A DNA stretch of 64,000 nucleotides from Aquimarina sp. ERC-38 (GTDB taxonomy: Bacteria > Bacteroidota > Bacteroidia > Flavobacteriales > Flavobacteriaceae), in the NCBI RefSeq assembly GCF_026222555.1, contig NZ_CP098511.1, positions 101,001 to 165,000 on the forward strand, given 5' to 3'. Below the pieces are notes generated by a model. It was not told the origin of the DNA and did no database searches. It saw only the letters and a list, made by a program, of their open reading frames with translations. The position numbers were made by a program, and so were the translations under genes. Below are positions 7,673 to 48,523 of this stretch, in pieces (the stretch's first letter is position 1; every line of letters starts with the position of its first letter).

Positions 7673-8761
7673 TTAAGCTTTAGCTACACTTACACTCTTC
7701 TGATGGTTGATAGATTCCTGATGGATAGCTTTATAAATCCTTAAAATAAATTCTTCGCTTAATCCATTTTCTTCTCCTTCCAGGATCATCCTGCCTAAAA
7801 TCTCGTTCCATCGCTTGGATTGCAAAATAGCCACATTTTGACTGGCTTTGATTTTACCAATCTCATCCGAAATTCGCATACGTTTTGCTAAAACTTCTAA
7901 TAGCTGATTATCAGCAATATCAATTTTTGCTCGTGATTCAGTTAAAGCACTTTGATAAGCTTCATCCTCTCCGACTTCTTTACGGATTTTCAAATCTTTC
8001 ATGATTTGCACCAATCGCTCCGGGGTAATTTGCTGTTTAGCATCACTCCAGGCATTATCCGGATCATAATGAGTTTCTACAATCAATCCGTCAAAATTAA
8101 GGTCTAATGCAGTTTGAGATAAATCAAATATCAATTCCCGGTTTCCGGCAATATGAGACGGGTCTAAGATTAAAGGCAAGTCCGGAAAACGGTTTTGCAA
8201 GTCTATCGGTATTTGCCATTCCGGTATATTTCTATATTTTGTTTTTTCATAGGTAGAAAAACCTCTGTGTATAACGCCCAGATTTTTTACATCACAAGTA
8301 TAAAAACGCTCTACCGCACCTAACCATAGGGATAAATCCGGATTGATTGGGTTTTTAATAAGTACCGGGTTATCAATACCTCGACAAGCTTCGGCGATAT
8401 CCTGAACGATAAATGGAGAAACGGTACTCCTGGCTCCAATCCACAATACATCCACTCCGTGTTTTAATGCTAATTCCACGTGATGCGGATTTGCAACTTC
8501 AGTAGCGATTTTTAGACCTGTTTCTTCTTTTGCTCGTTGTAACCATTTTAATCCTAAAGCTCCTACTCCTTCAAAGTTTCCCGGGCGGGTTCTGGGTTTC
8601 CAGATTCCTGCTCTTAATACGGTGGCGTCCGTATCTTTTAACTGATGTGCAATAGTGACTACCTGATCTTCGGTTTCTGCACTACAAGGTCCTGCTATTA
8701 CCAGCGGATGATCGAGGTTATAGGTATCCAGCCAGGTTCTTAGTTCTTTCTTATTTTCCAT
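7673..8761 (-). CDS. Bifunctional DAHP synthase / chorismate mutase
   Basis: 362 residues in two parts. Residues 1-260 are a class I-beta (KDSA-like) DAHP synthase: HPLVIAGPCSAE near the start, LRAGIWKPRTRPGNFEG, the LIKNPINPD block and ILDPSHIAGNRELI. Residues 265-350 are an AroQ-type chorismate mutase helix bundle (SRAKIDIADNQLLEVLAKRM ... KASQNVAILQSKRWNEIL). The fusion links the entry of the shikimate pathway (PEP + erythrose-4-P) to prephenate formation; the mutase part often senses prephenate for feedback. Last gene of the pheA-aminotransferase-tyrA operon, so it falls under the attenuator. Confidence 0.94.
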   Translation of the reverse strand: MENKKELRTWLDTYNLDHPLVIAGPCSAETEDQVVTIAHQLKDTDATVLRAGIWKPRTRPGNFEGVGALGLKWLQRAKEETGLKIATEVANPHHVELALKHGVDVLWIGARSTVSPFIVQDIAEACRGIDNPVLIKNPINPDLSLWLGAVERFYTCDVKNLGVIHRGFSTYEKTKYRNIPEWQIPIDLQNRFPDLPLILDPSHIAGNRELIFDLSQTALDLNFDGLIVETHYDPDNAWSDAKQQITPERLVQIMKDLKIRKEVGEDEAYQSALTESRAKIDIADNQLLEVLAKRMRISDEIGKIKASQNVAILQSKRWNEILGRMILEGEENGLSEEFILRIYKAIHQESINHQKSVSVAKA

Positions 8762-8797: not shown

Positions 8798-9649
8798 TTA
8801 TCTATCAATTCCGTTTAAAATCGATTTAATTCTATTCGCTGCTTCCATTTCAGCATATACTTTTTCAAAATCGTCTTCTTCCAGTAACTTCTGAAACCAG
8901 GATAGGTTTGAAATATATTCTTTTAAAGTTTCCAACACATTTTCTTTATTATGTTCAAAAATAGGTGTCCACATCGCCGGCGAACTTTTTGCCAACCGAA
9001 CGGTTGAGGCAAAACCGCTTCCTGCCATATCAAAGATATCTTTTTCATTCTTTTCCTTTTCAATTACCGTCTTCCCTAACATAAATGAACTTATATGTGA
9101 TAGGTGAGAAACGTAGGCAATATGCTTATCGTGAGAAGCCGGATCCATATATCGAATTCGCATCCCTAATTTAGAAAAGATTTCCAATCCTTTTTCCTGT
9201 AACTTAAATGCTGTTTTTTCTACTTCGCATATGATATTAGTCTTATTTCTATACAGATTTGCTATCGCCGCTTTAGGCCCGGAAAATTCTGTTCCGGCTA
9301 TAGGATGTGCTGCTAAATAATTTCGACGCTTTTTATGATCATTTACTTTAGCACATAATTTTTGCTTGGTCGAACCTGCGTCAATAACCAGGCAGTCATC
9401 CGGAACCAAATCCAATACTCTAGGTAGAATGGTTAAGGTACTATTGACCGGAATGGTTATAATGACCACTTCGGCTTTATTAATATCTTCAAGAATAGCT
9501 TTATGATCAATAATTCCCAGTTCTAAAGCTTGTTGCAAATGAGAATTGTTCTGATCAATACCAAAGATTTCTGACTCTTTGAATGCTGACTTTATATCAA
9601 TAGCAAAGGAGCCGCCTATCAAACCTATTCCGATTATATAAACTTTCAT
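8798..9649 (-). CDS. tyrA: Prephenate dehydrogenase
   Basis: 283 residues. Rossmann NAD(P) site at the N-terminus (VYIIGIGLIGGSFAIDI, glycines at 7, 9 and 12-13). The TyrA blocks are present: DAGSTKQKL, AAHPIAGTEFSGP with the substrate-binding histidine, and SHLSHISSF. It oxidatively decarboxylates prephenate to 4-hydroxyphenylpyruvate for tyrosine synthesis. The start overlaps the aminotransferase stop by ATGA (9646-9649), indicating translational coupling. No ACT domain, so allosteric control is not evident here. Confidence 0.94.
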   Translation of the reverse strand: MKVYIIGIGLIGGSFAIDIKSAFKESEIFGIDQNNSHLQQALELGIIDHKAILEDINKAEVVIITIPVNSTLTILPRVLDLVPDDCLVIDAGSTKQKLCAKVNDHKKRRNYLAAHPIAGTEFSGPKAAIANLYRNKTNIICEVEKTAFKLQEKGLEIFSKLGMRIRYMDPASHDKHIAYVSHLSHISSFMLGKTVIEKEKNEKDIFDMAGSGFASTVRLAKSSPAMWTPIFEHNKENVLETLKEYISNLSWFQKLLEEDDFEKVYAEMEAANRIKSILNGIDR

Positions 9650-10815
9650 AAACTAACTTTATGATGTTGCAAGCGTTCTATTGCTTCTGCTATTTTTTCT
9701 TTAGAAACACATAAAGAAAACCGAATATATCCTTTTCCATTACTTCCAAAAATGGAACCCGGGGTAATAAATACATCATTTCTGTACAAGATGTTGTCGA
9801 TGAAAGAAACATCATCCGCATTATTTCCGGGTAATTTAGCCCAAACAAACATCCCCGTAGCATTTTTATCATAGCTGCAATTGAGTTGATCCGCGAGGTT
9901 CCATATATAGTTTCTACGCTCCTGATAGATAGTATTTATCTTATTGTACCAGGAAGCTGAACTTTGTAACGCAACAATTGCTCCTTTTTGCAAACCGTAA
10001 AACATACCGCTATCCATATTACTTTTTACCTTAAGTACTGCTTCAATTTTATCAGCACTTCCGGCTAACATCCCTACTCTCCATCCAGCCATATTAAAGG
10101 TTTTACTTAAGGAGTTTAGTTCAAGAGCTACCTTTTTTGCGTCGGGAATACTTAATATGCTTAAAGGCTGTTCGTTTAATACAAAACTGTATGGATTGTC
10201 ATGAACTAATAATATATGATGCTTAGTAGCAAAGTCAATTAATTGCTGAAACAATCCTTTAGAAGCCGGAGCTCCGGTGGGCATATTGGGATAATTTACC
10301 CACATTAACTTCACTCCGGATAAATCTTGCTTTTCTAAGGTTTTAAAATCCGGGTACCAGTTATTTTCTGCTTTTAGATCATAAAAAAGCGGTGAAGCCC
10401 CTACAAGATTAGTGATAGCTGCATAGGTCGGATATCCGGGATTCGGGATTAACACCTGGTCTCCTTCATTAAGATATGCCATAGAGATATGCATAATTCC
10501 CTCTTTGGAACCTATTAAAGGCAAAATCTCATTTACAGGATTTAAAGAGACTTCATATCTCTCCTGGTAAAAAGTAGCAAATGCTTCTCTAAGTTCCGGT
10601 AATCCCTGGTAACTCTGGTATTTATGTGCGCCAGGCATGGTAGCAGCCTGCTGGATTTCTTTAATTACCTGCACGGGTGGTTCTAAGTCCGGGCTACCGA
10701 TCGCCATATTGATAATCGATTTACCGGAAGCAGCCAGTTCTCGCACCTCCCGTAATTTTCTAGAGAAATAATATTCCTGGACGGTTTCTAATCTTTTAGC
10801 GGTTTGTACACTCAT
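9646..10815 (-). CDS. Aromatic/aspartate-type PLP aminotransferase
   Basis: 389 residues, fold-type I aminotransferase class I/II. The PLP-binding lysine is Lys238 in NSLSKTFNMAGWRVG, the NYPNMPTG motif is at 174-181 and the carboxylate-binding Arg is in YIRFSLC near the C-terminus. Its place between pheA and tyrA suggests it transaminates phenylpyruvate and 4-hydroxyphenylpyruvate (or prephenate). ATGA overlaps with both neighbours show a tightly coupled operon. LL-DAP aminotransferase-like enzymes have a similar sequence, so the substrate rests on context. Confidence 0.85.
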   Translation of the reverse strand: MSVQTAKRLETVQEYYFSRKLREVRELAASGKSIINMAIGSPDLEPPVQVIKEIQQAATMPGAHKYQSYQGLPELREAFATFYQERYEVSLNPVNEILPLIGSKEGIMHISMAYLNEGDQVLIPNPGYPTYAAITNLVGASPLFYDLKAENNWYPDFKTLEKQDLSGVKLMWVNYPNMPTGAPASKGLFQQLIDFATKHHILLVHDNPYSFVLNEQPLSILSIPDAKKVALELNSLSKTFNMAGWRVGMLAGSADKIEAVLKVKSNMDSGMFYGLQKGAIVALQSSASWYNKINTIYQERRNYIWNLADQLNCSYDKNATGMFVWAKLPGNNADDVSFIDNILYRNDVFITPGSIFGSNGKGYIRFSLCVSKEKIAEAIERLQHHKVSL

Positions 10816-11720
10816 CCGTTTTGATTTTTATATTCTCCTAAAATTTTTACGTCGTACGCCATAATATTGAGAATAGACATTGCTTTGCTAAACCCTTCGT
10901 AAGAATCAAAGGTGGTATCTATAAAAAAAGAATAGCGCCAGGGTTCATCGATAATGGGCAGGGATTGAATTTTAGTTAAATTTAAATTACAATCACTCAT
11001 CACATTAAGTACAGATGCCAGACTACCGCGTTTATGATCCGTATAAAATTTTATAGAAGCTTTATTTACTTCTGACTTAGGAATTTTTTTTGCGTTTTTT
11101 CCTTTTAAAATAAAAAAACGGGTGGCATTTGACTTAATAGTCTGAATTTCTTCAGCCAAAATGGAAAGGCCATAGATTCCGGCTGCACCTGCACCAGCTA
11201 CAGCGGCTATATTTCTTAATTGCTTTTCTTGTATTCGTTTTGCGACTTCTGCCGTATCCACATCTTCTACCAGTTTGATATGATCGTAATGGTTAAAAAA
11301 GTCTTTACATTGCAATAGTGCCATAGGGTGGGAATATACCTCTTTGATATCAGCAATTTTCTGATTGCCGAGAGCCATCAAACAATGGTGGATTGGTAGA
11401 AAATATTCGCCTACAATCTCTAGGTTATGTTCGTCAATATAAGCATAATTAGGTATGATGGAACCAGCAATGGAGTTCTCAATCGCCATGACTGCATCTG
11501 TACTTTTACCGGATTCCAGGCTCTTTACCAATTCCTGAAAAGACAGGCATTCATCAACCATTACCTCTTCTCCGAAGTATGCTTGAGCTACCTGATGATG
11601 GTAAGATCCTTTAATTCCCTGTATAGCTACGATAGTATCTATCACGTTACTTTGTTTAGAAGGCTTACTGCTTTTATAACTATATTCTTTTTTATCAATT
11701 ATGTTTGGTACTGTCTTCAT
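10812..11720 (-). CDS. pheA: Prephenate dehydratase
   Basis: The prephenate dehydratase domain runs from IVAIQGIKGSYHHQVA to SNATRFFILKG, including AVMAIENSIAGSI and the catalytic TR(F) motif. A C-terminal ACT domain follows (KFYTDHKRGSLASVLNVM ... NLTKIQSLPI), the usual phenylalanine feedback site. Converts prephenate to phenylpyruvate. I start it at the ATG at 11720, which has GGAAGG 5 bases upstream; an in-frame TTG at 11732 overlaps that site and is unlikely. The first 28 residues are a lysine/serine-rich extension beyond the usual family start. First structural gene of the operon. Confidence 0.93.
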   Translation of the reverse strand: MKTVPNIIDKKEYSYKSSKPSKQSNVIDTIVAIQGIKGSYHHQVAQAYFGEEVMVDECLSFQELVKSLESGKSTDAVMAIENSIAGSIIPNYAYIDEHNLEIVGEYFLPIHHCLMALGNQKIADIKEVYSHPMALLQCKDFFNHYDHIKLVEDVDTAEVAKRIQEKQLRNIAAVAGAGAAGIYGLSILAEEIQTIKSNATRFFILKGKNAKKIPKSEVNKASIKFYTDHKRGSLASVLNVMSDCNLNLTKIQSLPIIDEPWRYSFFIDTTFDSYEGFSKAMSILNIMAYDVKILGEYKNQNG

Positions 11721-11745
11721 AAAGCCTTCCAAAATTCATGGTATA

Positions 11746-11775
11746 AAAAAATCCCGATGTTTATCGGGATTTTTA
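11746..11775 (-). terminator. Attenuator: intrinsic terminator in the pheA leader
   Basis: On the minus strand ATCCCGAT-AAAC-ATCGGGAT forms a perfect 8-bp stem, extended by A/T pairs, followed at once by seven Ts. It lies 25 bases upstream of the pheA start and downstream of the leader peptide stop, so it would end transcription before the operon. Confidence 0.85.
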
Positions 11776-11830
11776 TGTATCATATTATAAGTATTACATA
11801 CTGACCCCGCTTTTACCTTTGTGGTAAAAG
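11765..11830 (-). promoter_or_regulatory. Alternative RNA pairings of the pheA attenuator
   Basis: Two further pairings are visible. The first is a pause-type hairpin, CTTTTACC (11823-11830) with GGTAAAAG (11810-11817), spanning the end of the Phe/Tyr codon run. The second is an antiterminator: CGGGGT-CAG-TATG (11797-11809) can pair with CATA-AAA-ATCCCG (11765-11777), 6 + 4 bp around a 3x3 loop, and it consumes the 5' arm of the terminator. A ribosome reaching the leader stop would cover the antiterminator strand; one stalled on the Phe codons would leave it free. Pairing seen by eye; no folding energy calculated. Confidence 0.7.
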
Positions 11831-11871
11831 AAGAAAAAATAAAATCGGTTCCAGAATACAATACTTTTCAT
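11794..11871 (-). CDS. Phe/Tyr-rich leader peptide of the aromatic operon
   Basis: A 25-codon reading frame with ATG at 11871 and TAA at 11796-11794. Residues 6-16 read FWNRFYFFFFY: nine aromatic residues of eleven (six Phe, two Tyr, one Trp). The stop lies just before the terminator hairpin that precedes pheA. This is the architecture of amino-acid-responsive attenuation leaders (pheA, pheST and trp leaders of enterobacteria). Too short for routine gene calling. Confidence 0.85.
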   Translation of the reverse strand: MKSIVFWNRFYFFFFYHKGKSGVSM

Positions 11872-11921
11872 TACTTCAATTTTCTGATGCTAAATTAGAA
11901 AAATAAATAGAAAGAAAGATA

Positions 11922-11950
11922 CGAATTTAAAATAATCAGTCTACATCAAA
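11922..11950 (-). promoter_or_regulatory. Promoter of the aromatic operon leader
   Basis: On the minus strand TTTG (11947-11950) is followed after 17 bases by TAAATTCG (11922-11929), one base off TAnnTTTG. Transcription would start near 11915, about 45 bases before the leader-peptide ATG. The rest of the 11872-12060 gap shows no other feature. Confidence 0.6.
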
Positions 11951-12060
11951 TATTATCATTAATAATCATGTCATTTTTAAAAATTATTAAAAAAATTGAT
12001 CAAATAGTTTTAAAATTATAAAGATATTTCAATACCACTATTACTAACAAACATTCGTAT

Positions 12061-13248
12061 TCAGATGATTTTTAAAGATTTACCTACGTTTATAAAAGCT
12101 TTTACTGCAAAATCAATTTGTTCCGGACTATGGGCGGCTGAAAGTTGCACTCTGATACGCGCTTTACCTTTAGGAACCACCGGATAAAAGAAGCCTATGA
12201 CATAAATACCTTCTGAGACTAATTTTGCAGCAAATTCCTGTGCCAGTTTGGCATCGTACAACATAATGGGTACGATAGGATGCTCCCCTGGGATGATATC
12301 AAAACCGGCTTCAGTCATCTTATTTCTAAATTGTTTGGTATTTGCTTCTAGTTTATCACGCAATTCCGTAGAACCGGATAAAATATTCAGTACTTTGATA
12401 GAAGCTCCTACAATGGAAGGGGCTAGCGTATTTGAAAATAGATAAGGCCTGGACTTTTGCCTTAGTATCTCCACTATTTCCTTTCGAGCAGCGGTAAATC
12501 CTCCGGAAGCTCCTCCCAAAGCTTTTCCATAGGTACCCGTTATAATATCCACTCTTCCCATTACATTACAATGCTCATGGGTACCCCGACCGGTTATACC
12601 CAAGAACCCGGTAGAATGGCAATCATCAACCATTACCATTGCTCCATAAGCGTCAGCCAGATCACAAATTTTATCCAGTTGAGCAATGGTGCCGTCCATA
12701 GAAAAGGAACCGTCAGTTACAATTAAGATACGCCGGGAGCCTTTTGCTGCAATTAATTGCTTTTCCAGATCAGCCATATTATTATGCTCGTAACGAAAAC
12801 GTTGCGCTTTACATAAACGAATTCCATCAATAATAGAAGCATGATTTAAAGCATCTGAAATAATAGCGTCTTCACTGGTAAGCAAAGGTTCAAAAACACC
12901 ACCGTTTGCATCAAAAGCCGCCGCATATAAGATACAATCTTCCATCCCAAGAAAATCTGCTGTCTTTTGCTCTAATTCCTTGTGTATATCCTGGGTACCA
13001 CAAATAAAGCGAACAGAGGACAACCCAAATCCATGACTGTCAATAGTGGCTTTGCTTGCCTGAATTACAGATGGGTCTGAAGAAAGCCCTAAGTAATTAT
13101 TTGCACAAAAATTAAGAAGGTTTTTAGTAGCCTCCGTATCAATTTCAGCTCCTTGTGGCGAAGTAATTTTTCTTTCTTTTTTATAAAGTCCTGCTTCTTT
13201 AATCGTATCCAACTCCTGGATTAATTGTTTTTTAACGCCGGTATACAT
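12061..13248 (-). CDS. kbl: Glycine C-acetyltransferase (2-amino-3-ketobutyrate CoA ligase)
   Basis: 395 residues, the Kbl length. Alpha-oxoamine synthase family: PLP lysine at 242 in [23 protein letters not shown] at 208-215, [11 protein letters not shown] at 46-56. It cleaves 2-amino-3-ketobutyrate with CoA to glycine and acetyl-CoA. The partner dehydrogenase gene lies 33 bases upstream, so the pair makes a threonine-to-glycine route. Confidence 0.95.
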
Positions 13249-27665: not shown

Positions 27666-27730
27666 ATAATGACAATTATAATATAATATCAAGAAATTTG
27701 TGGAAAAGATAGCCTTAGCTATAGGTTTTC

Positions 27731-27937
27731 GTTATCTAGTCCCGTTGTACAGGATAGAATGTAGCACCTTCTCTATCTAAAAAAAATTAAGAAAATCTAA
27801 ACTGAAAAGGTCCTGCTTAAAGCGGGACTAATTCAACTTACAACTTTAAGAACCAAAAAGTAGTTTTTAAAATTGAGTTTCATCTAGAGGGTTGCTAAGG
27901 TTTCACAGGGTCTATTCCCTCCGCCTTTCTTGATAAC
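27731..27937 (-). promoter_or_regulatory. SAM-I (S-box) riboswitch before metH
   Basis: Minus-strand RNA opens GTTATCAAGAAAGG-CGGAGGGA, continues GACCCTGTGAAACCTTAGCAACC, and closes AAGGTGCTACATTCTATCC then GATAAC. These are the P1, kink-turn, P2 and J3/4 blocks of SAM-I. P1 is GTTATC (27932-27937) with GATAAC (27731-27736). The P3 arm is unusually long (roughly 27785-27885). A short ATAGC-TAAG-GCTAT hairpin followed by CTTTT (27709-27722) may be part of the expression platform. A TTTG upstream fits a promoter but its -7 box is weak. It should turn the metH operon down when SAM is high. Confidence 0.92.
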
Positions 27938-28094
27938 ATTAATATGTATATGAACTGTACGCTATGTACTTTTAAAACTAAATGCAAAGAACGGGCATAA
28001 CAGTCTTTTTTGCAAGGAAAAATTATAAAAGATCACTTGCCAAAATAGTGTCACTCTATAATCATATTTCTGTCTTTATGAAAAAACAGAAAAT

Positions 28095-47940: not shown

Positions 47941-48124
47941 ATCTTTTTACTTTTCTCTTCTTCCTGTATCTCCAGGAGGATCATTTAAAATTTAAGGCAG
48001 AAACAAAGCATGCCTTTTTCAATCGCTCATACAGAATTCTACATGTACCTTATTAGATACAGATTTATAAAAAATTAAAAAGAAAGGAGTTTAATAAATA
48101 CCCGGACACAGGTATGAATCATGT

Positions 48125-48242
48125 GTTATCTATTTCGCAAATGCGAATAGAATGTAGCACCTTCTCTTAAAGAACCTTTAAGTTTTATTAAAAGGGTTGC
48201 TAAGGTTTCATTGGGTCTATTCCCTCCACCTTTCTTGATAAC
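48125..48242 (-). promoter_or_regulatory. SAM-I (S-box) riboswitch before metY
   Basis: Minus-strand RNA: GTTATCAAGAAAGGTGGAGG, GACCCAATGAAACCTTAGCAAC, a compact P3, AAGGTGCTACATTCTATTCG and P4 CTATTCGC/GCGAATAG, closed by GATAAC. P1 is GTTATC (48237-48242) with GATAAC (48125-48130). A TACATTTT -7-like box is at 48248-48255. The 184 bases between aptamer and start hold only a weak ATACC/GGTAT hairpin as possible terminator. The 281 bases on the metK side show no second riboswitch. Confidence 0.93.
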
Positions 48243-48523
48243 GTTTTAAAATGTATAAGAAACTTGATGCGAAATTAATAATTATTTTGAAACTGTCATA
48301 GTTTTCTTAAAAAAACCTATTAGGCTTTGCAAAGCTTATGTGAATACTTACATTTGCCTCCTAATTTTGGGAAAGATTTGACTGATTGCAACCCAAAGGA
48401 TTATGAGATTCAATAACTATTCTAATTTGATAATCCTAAAATGCTAAAACAGTTTAGTACGTCGATGTATTGACTTTCAGGCAGGCACTGTAATCTTCAA
48501 TTTTCCTTTACAACTTAATAAAC

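Follow-up and report, generated by a model that had tools for sequence, protein, structure and literature searches.

The pheA gene of Aquimarina sp. ERC-38 is very probably preceded by a classical four-segment ribosome-mediated transcription attenuator of the phe/trp type. The genome is represented by a single contig of 4.43 Mb, and the candidate attenuator is located on the minus strand of the window, the whole analyzed stretch of 64,000 nt (Table 1). Direct support from the sequence and its comparison with other genomes is provided by the leader peptide, the terminator, three alternative helices, the joint variation of the 2:3 and 1:2 pairings, the spacing between the aromatic run and strand 2, and the operon content; from these we infer translation of the leader, stalling of the ribosome, termination and antitermination in the cell, and the tRNAs that are sensed. 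All elements listed in the original prediction, which proposed a complete leader-peptide attenuator upstream of pheA, were found.

According to the proposed mechanism, RNA polymerase would synthesize the leader RNA, and a ribosome would translate the peptide of 25 codons. When aromatic aminoacyl-tRNAs are plentiful, the ribosome would reach the stop codon and cover segment 2, allowing the 3:4 terminator to form and ending transcription before pheA. When tRNA for Phe or Tyr, possibly also Trp, is uncharged, the ribosome would stall on the aromatic run, blocking the pairing of segment 1 and stopping just short of segment 2; the 2:3 helix would then form, the terminator would not form in time, and the genes for prephenate dehydratase, the aminotransferase, prephenate dehydrogenase and DAHP synthase would be transcribed. 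In the absence of a ribosome, the 1:2 helix would form first, favoring termination.

Table 1. Coordinates in the window of the elements of the pheA leader and of the downstream genes.
Feature	Position	Strand	Basis
Promoter proposed in the original prediction, TTTG-N17-TAAATTCG	11922..11950	minus	present; unconserved in aligned Aquimarina
-7-like box TAATTTAG, likely leader promoter	11890..11897	minus	conserved TANNTTAG and alignment
Leader peptide ORF MKSIVFWNRFYFFFFYHKGKSGVSM-stop, 25 codons and stop	11794..11871	minus	frame read in the window
Segment 1, upstream (5') arm of protector stem 1:2	11851..11866	minus	MFE fold; 1:2 pairs better within genomes than after swapping
Control-codon run FWNRFYFFFFY, 9 aromatic residues in 11	11824..11856	minus	translation
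Inner hairpin CTTTTACC-ACAAA-GGTAAAAG within the 1:2 arm, possible pause hairpin	11810..11830	minus	fold
Segment 2, antiterminator strand CGGGGTCAGTATG, final leader codons	11797..11809	minus	masked folds; cross-clade variation
Portion of segment 2 pairing with segment 1, TCAGTATGTAATACTT	11789..11804	minus	fold; swap test
Segment 3 CATAAAAATCCCGAT, 5' terminator arm that also pairs with segment 2	11763..11777	minus	fold; comparison
Segment 4 and U-tract ATCGGGATTTTTTT, intrinsic terminator with segment 3	11745..11758	minus	fold
pheA, prephenate dehydratase	10812..11720	minus	PF00800
Class I/II aminotransferase	9646..10815	minus	PF00155
tyrA, prephenate dehydrogenase	8798..9649	minus	NF006307 above cut-off
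DAHP synthase fused to chorismate mutase type II	7673..8761	minus	PF00793 and PF01817

Leader Peptide and Operon Content

The predicted frame of 25 codons with nine aromatic residues in eleven was confirmed at 11871-11794 of the minus strand, and the composition given for its run, namely, six Phe, two Tyr and one Trp, is correct. The window contains 1,509 ORFs of 8-60 codons, and none of the others is as aromatic as the leader, which has nine aromatic residues in eleven against seven in the runner-up. When upstream regions were shuffled, at least eight in eleven appeared in 0.2% of 3,180. The leader stop codon (11796-11794) adjoins the antiterminator strand, in agreement with the original prediction.

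Profile matches also bore out the predicted operon containing pheA, tyrA and DAHP synthase. Of the 80 named loci considered, the best of 585, 78 keep the order pheA-aminotransferase-tyrA-DAHP synthase, and the remaining two show pheA-aminotransferase-tyrA within the sequence examined.

Conservation of the Leader

A match to pheA was found in 174 genomes, including 130 of the family sample, that of Aquimarina sp. ERC-38 among them, and 44 further genomes of Aquimarina; no match at the threshold was detected in 19 of 149 family genomes. After exclusion of G035 and G048, in which the match is too close to the contig start, and of 13 Aquimarina genomes, 159 genomes were analyzed, of which 128, including that of Aquimarina sp. 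ERC-38, come from the family sample and 31 are additional Aquimarina. An aromatic-rich leader, taken as an ORF with at least six aromatic residues in eleven and mostly having eight or nine, is present upstream of pheA in 156 of the 159 genomes, including Aquimarina sp. ERC-38, while L092, L124 and L147 contain pheA with no aromatic-rich frame upstream. Repeated short GC-rich hairpins were observed upstream of pheA in L092, and repeated sequence in L147. Checked against loss in relatives, both conserved elements of the prediction stand: the aromatic run is kept in these 156 genomes, and the 2:3 antiterminator pairing varies together with the terminator across clades. All of the best 80 of 585 named loci, a set that partly overlaps with the 159 genomes and so is not independent of them, contain a leader with at least seven aromatic residues and a hairpin below -8 kcal/mol.

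Outside Flavobacteriaceae, the best 30 loci of 102 phylum matches and 27 matches of 99 class genomes were considered, representing 37 different genomes; L205 has no upstream sequence, which leaves 36 testable. The leader and hairpin were found in 20 of these, with L209 and L211 being weak cases, and no leader was found in the other 16. The genomes with leaders belong to the same class, with the addition of G206 and G256, which are assigned only to the same phylum, while in five other genomes of the phylum (L183-L187, among the 30 best of 102 phylum matches) the leader is absent. Enterobacterial-type attenuation would be the usual arrangement of the aromatic operon in Flavobacteriaceae, a large environmental family, and would extend to other orders.

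Segments and Pairings of the Leader RNA

Folding and comparison indicate an intrinsic terminator between the leader ORF and pheA. Its hairpin (11772..11749) has a perfect stem of 10 bp, or 12 bp in the fold that uses Us of the tail, and is followed by seven Ts (11751..11745). The perfect stem and the T7 tract of the original prediction are thus present, but the hairpin cannot be called a G/C one, as only four of the ten pairs are G-C. A simple terminator scan found none in 11600-12100 by its rule, for which the tail after the 10-bp stem, TTTTATAC, is short.

The mutually exclusive pairing of 11797-11809 with 11765-11777, also predicted earlier, is present, with 10 of 13 positions paired (six pairs, a 3x3 internal loop and four pairs). 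An element that had not been noticed earlier is the 1:2 stem, which in the MFE fold pairs 11866-11851 with 11804-11789, bringing together the beginning and the end of the peptide. The consensus fold of Aquimarina also contains an inner hairpin at the same position as 11810..11830.

The fold of the leader RNA has z = -4.6, with none of 200 shuffles as good. A structured 5' leader would also be expected if a small molecule or tRNA (riboswitch, T-box) or an RNA-binding protein controlled the terminator and the peptide were incidental. This explanation is extremely unlikely: no Rfam family reached the gathering score at this locus or in 20 related loci, and what is conserved is a reading frame at a distance from strand 2 on the scale of a ribosome. 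The same Rfam result led to the rejection of a known riboswitch or T-box.

Joint Variation of the Alternative Helices

The 2:3 pairing scored 17.4 within genomes compared with 13.7 when strand 3 was taken from another genome (sd 0.22; maximum of 10,000 permutations 14.5; n = 150). Without Aquimarina (n = 118), the own-genome score was 17.3 compared with 14.1 after permutation, with a maximum of 15.0, and in 21 loci bearing a leader it was 17.05 against 14.4, with a maximum of 16.6 in 5,000 permutations. The 1:2 pairing outside Aquimarina (n = 118) scored 18.6 in own genomes and 15.3 in permuted ones, with a maximum of 16.5 in 5,000, while within Aquimarina (n = 32) the score of 19.6, against a mean of 18.4, does no more than match the highest of 5,000 permutations. 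Because the permutations take no account of relatedness, none of these values is a probability.

Strand 3 occurs in several forms, which strands 2 and 4 follow. In the 146 of 150 genomes tabulated, the combinations of strands 2, 3 and 4 include GGGAT/ATCCC/GGGAT (31 genomes), GGGAC/GTCCC/GGGAC (19), GAGAC/GTCTC/GAGAC (13) and AGGAC/GTCCT/AGGAC (4); the four further genomes yielded no strand-3 core. The statistics of pairing and geometry omit nine of the 159 genomes, namely, L092, L124 and L147, which have no leader, L062, L133, L137 and L148, in which a wrong hairpin was picked automatically while the expected one is visible, and L012 and L074, in which the hairpin was overextended. The predicted mutually exclusive antiterminator is backed by this joint variation across clades.

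Within one clade of 41 sequences, the paired percentage of 2:3 was reached by 500 of 500 shuffles and that of 1:2 plus 3:4 by 27 of 500; covariation within a clade is low in power, since the pairs hardly vary. The helices are paired in 96-98% of cells in this clade compared with 18-56% when slid. At alignment columns 108/125, 22 of the 41 sequences keep a G-U pair in the terminator (3:4), where every one of the 41 has A-U as the antiterminator (2:3) pair, as though the balance had been shifted in favor of read-through.

The recurrent Asn of the run is encoded by AAC in 119 of 140 cases, compared with 27% AAC in pheA. This preference fits the place of Asn in segment 1 (AACGGT with ACTGTT), as pairing of the RNA would favor. 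The core of the peptide is itself strongly conserved, as would be expected if the peptide acted directly, by nascent-chain arrest or as a small protein, and the terminator were the plain end of a separate small gene. Such a role is very unlikely, because the C-terminus varies by clade (SKIGIAM, NETLYV, RGTGLL) along with the pairing of strands 2 and 3, and the choice of Asn codon follows RNA pairing; on these grounds a function at the peptide level was rejected.

Position of the Control Codons and Ribosome-Mask Folding

Measured in 150 genomes from the point at which the last aromatic codon begins, the distance to strand 2 has a median of 14 nt (IQR 12-14, sd 1.7), while distances involving the stop codon have sd of 4.7 to 5.8, and that from strand 2 to the terminator has sd of 3.4. 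The spacing of 14 nt between run and strand 2 is what would be required by a ribosome with its leading edge some 14-15 nt in front of the A-site. The same median of 14 nt, with a range of 7-37, was obtained for 21 loci selected because they carry a leader, of which 20 are from outside the family; here the first best window of 11 residues was used as the end of the run, a definition that falls one or two codons short in 49 of 150 genomes, with sd then of 2.2.

The logic of the original prediction, in which a ribosome finishing the peptide masks the antiterminator strand and a stalled one frees it, was reproduced by masked folding as a predicted switch. The ribosome was placed codon by codon on a transcript ending in the terminator loop, with its edge assumed to lie at 15 nt. 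With the A-site on the run, segment 3 is sequestered at a median of 0.75-0.77 in 150 genomes; the value is 0.59 at the last aromatic codon, then 0.24, 0.09 and 0.07 at the next three codons, and 0.06 with the ribosome at the stop codon. In the model, the antiterminator disappears once the ribosome moves beyond the last aromatic codon; with the edge set at 12 or 18 nt, the switch shifts by one codon. When the spacer was shuffled, mean sequestration of segment 3 was 0.39 compared with 0.74. In Aquimarina sp. ERC-38 the values are 0.59 on the run, below the median of 0.76, and 0.07 at the stop codon; these and the stop-codon value of 0.06 also rest on the first-best-window end of the run. In the model, the control codons are placed so that a stalled ribosome would leave strand 2 free.

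Without a ribosome, and as long as segment 3 has yet to be transcribed, pairing of segment 2 with the peptide segment is predicted at a median of 0.75, exceeding 0.5 in 98% of 150 genomes. Once segment 3 is made, the 2:3 helix competes (median 0.64; 0.52 in Aquimarina sp. ERC-38), and the ribosome-free default is therefore not clear-cut at equilibrium. The folding model indicates that the 1:2 protector helix is present and is energetically not decisive once segment 3 exists; the likely order is that 1:2 forms first, followed by the terminator. With the whole terminator transcribed, it is the more stable fold in Aquimarina sp. ERC-38 even with the ribosome on the run, so that antitermination must be kinetic. 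The attenuator would imply that ribosomes track RNA polymerase closely in these bacteria, which is directly testable.

Amino Acids Probably Sensed

Phe and Tyr are present in all 150 modeled runs (means of 5.0 and 2.8), and Trp in 110 of them. Compared with pheA, the runs are enriched in Phe (47% vs 4.6%), Tyr (27% vs 3.1%) and Trp (6.9% vs 0.4%). The presence of Phe and Tyr in all runs and their enrichment over pheA make sensing of these two amino acids likely and that of Trp possible. Mixed aromatic sensing is plausible; the Trp codon can, in addition, take part in the 1:2 stem.

There is a considerable chance, short of even, that the attenuator is real and senses Phe and Tyr only, the Trp codon (TGG, which can fall in segment 1) serving RNA pairing. 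Consistent with this, Trp, despite its presence in 110 runs, is found among the three final codons in one run of 150, these codons otherwise encoding Phe or Tyr with one Asn; TGG is part of the 1:2 stem CTGGAACGGT in L003 and L004; and a separate leader with WWW precedes trpE. A role for Trp is favored by its enrichment, at least as great as that of Phe and Tyr, although counting Trp in the choice of the run favors Trp. The DAHP synthase of the operon also serves Trp, and a ribosome at early positions of the run gives the antiterminator in the model.

The wider reading, a three-input sensor turning the operon on when any of Phe, Tyr or Trp is short, within an old Bacteroidota set of Phe/Tyr/Trp, His and Trp attenuators, has nearly an even chance of being correct. 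If true, it would imply tight coupling of transcription and translation in Bacteroidota, a phylum where translation of most genes involves no Shine-Dalgarno sequence, and the leading edge of the ribosome, at about 14 nt, would be readable from evolution. The pheA leader also suggests itself as a natural reporter for aromatic amino acid starvation.

Candidate Promoter of the Leader Transcript

Of 156 leaders, 125 have the motif TANNTTAG at most 50 nt from their ATG, compared with 4.6% of base shuffles, and in 83 TTG is present 18 nt upstream of this box. The box resembles the sigma-A -7 box of F. psychrophilum, for which a published study gives the consensus TAnnTTTG (PMC9723704). The sequence TTTG-N17-TAAATTCG, from which a promoter had been proposed, does occur at 11950-11922, but none of the other 31 Aquimarina in the alignment shows it there. 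As a conserved promoter it was rejected, the shared box being TANNTTAG instead; by sequence comparison, the earlier assignment is probably wrong or at least unconserved. No TTG is present at the conserved 18-nt spacing from TAATTTAG in Aquimarina sp. ERC-38, and either promoter may therefore serve there.

Comparison with Known Attenuators

The enterobacterial pheL-pheA attenuator is represented by a Phe-rich leader peptide, the helices 1:2, 2:3 and 3:4, an intrinsic terminator and pheA downstream. The leader described here shares the peptide, helices, terminator and downstream pheA with this system (RF01859 Phe_leader), but belongs to a different phylum, has a run mixing Phe, Tyr and Trp, and precedes an operon that also contains tyrA, the aminotransferase and DAHP synthase. 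The RF01859 model scored 25 bits here, compared with a gathering score of 55 (E 0.059), and reached the gathering score in none of 20 relatives, so that assignment to this family was rejected. The same logic operates, with different codons and operons, in the attenuators of trp and his leaders (RF00513 and relatives); the pheA leader obtained 15 bits with the RF00513 model, whose gathering score is 41. The pheA leader represents an RNA family outside the coverage of Rfam 15.

In F. psychrophilum, the available part of the study of Guerin et al. (2021) reports a structured 5' element upstream of pheA and strong clues for leader-peptide attenuation before amino acid biosynthesis operons, with the pheA and hisG elements occurring in other genera of Flavobacteriaceae and having no Rfam hit (PMC9723704). 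This element concerns the same gene and the same family as the leader described here, which removes much of the surprise. Relative to that portion of the account, whose supplement may hold more, the peptide, the alternative pairing, the geometry and the phylogenetic range are added (PMC9723704). No closer description was found among the matches listed (titles and abstract openings), a set that covers few subscription journals, and a fuller one may exist. In a Bacteroides thetaiotaomicron map, sORFs reminiscent of leader peptides are mentioned (PMC7366714).

Leaders of Other Biosynthetic Operons

Upstream of hisG in Aquimarina sp. ERC-38 (C1:3642733-3643197), a His leader MNFIFLHHHHFYGIVQAR containing HHHH was found with a strong hairpin and T-tract; it ends 340 nt upstream of the hisG match, and its terminator is AAACCCGTTTGAG...AAACGGGTTT. 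The His-leader terminator, including the start of the loop, is unusually conserved. Upstream of trpE (C1:2404430-2404867), there is a leader ending in IWWWSFEIQNS, also with a strong hairpin and T-tract, and the Trp-leader terminator AAGGCTTGTC...GACAAGCCTT is highly conserved. In the family, His leaders precede hisG in all 30 loci read of 37 matches, and Trp leaders precede trpE in 28 of 30 loci read of 43 matches. With crude gene starts, a short ORF rich in Ile, Leu and Val was found upstream of ilvD in Aquimarina sp. ERC-38, where a strong terminator was not found, and nothing leader-like was detected upstream of two thrA-like genes.

Matches to SAM riboswitches were also observed. A SAM riboswitch (48123-48244, minus strand) and a SAM-II match (48362-48457, plus strand) are divergent and about 120 nt apart, so that two classes of SAM aptamer lie side by side; the SAM-II match is barely above the gathering score (44.8 vs 44). 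Another SAM riboswitch match (27729-27939, minus strand) spans 211 nt on a model of 108 positions and probably contains a long insertion.
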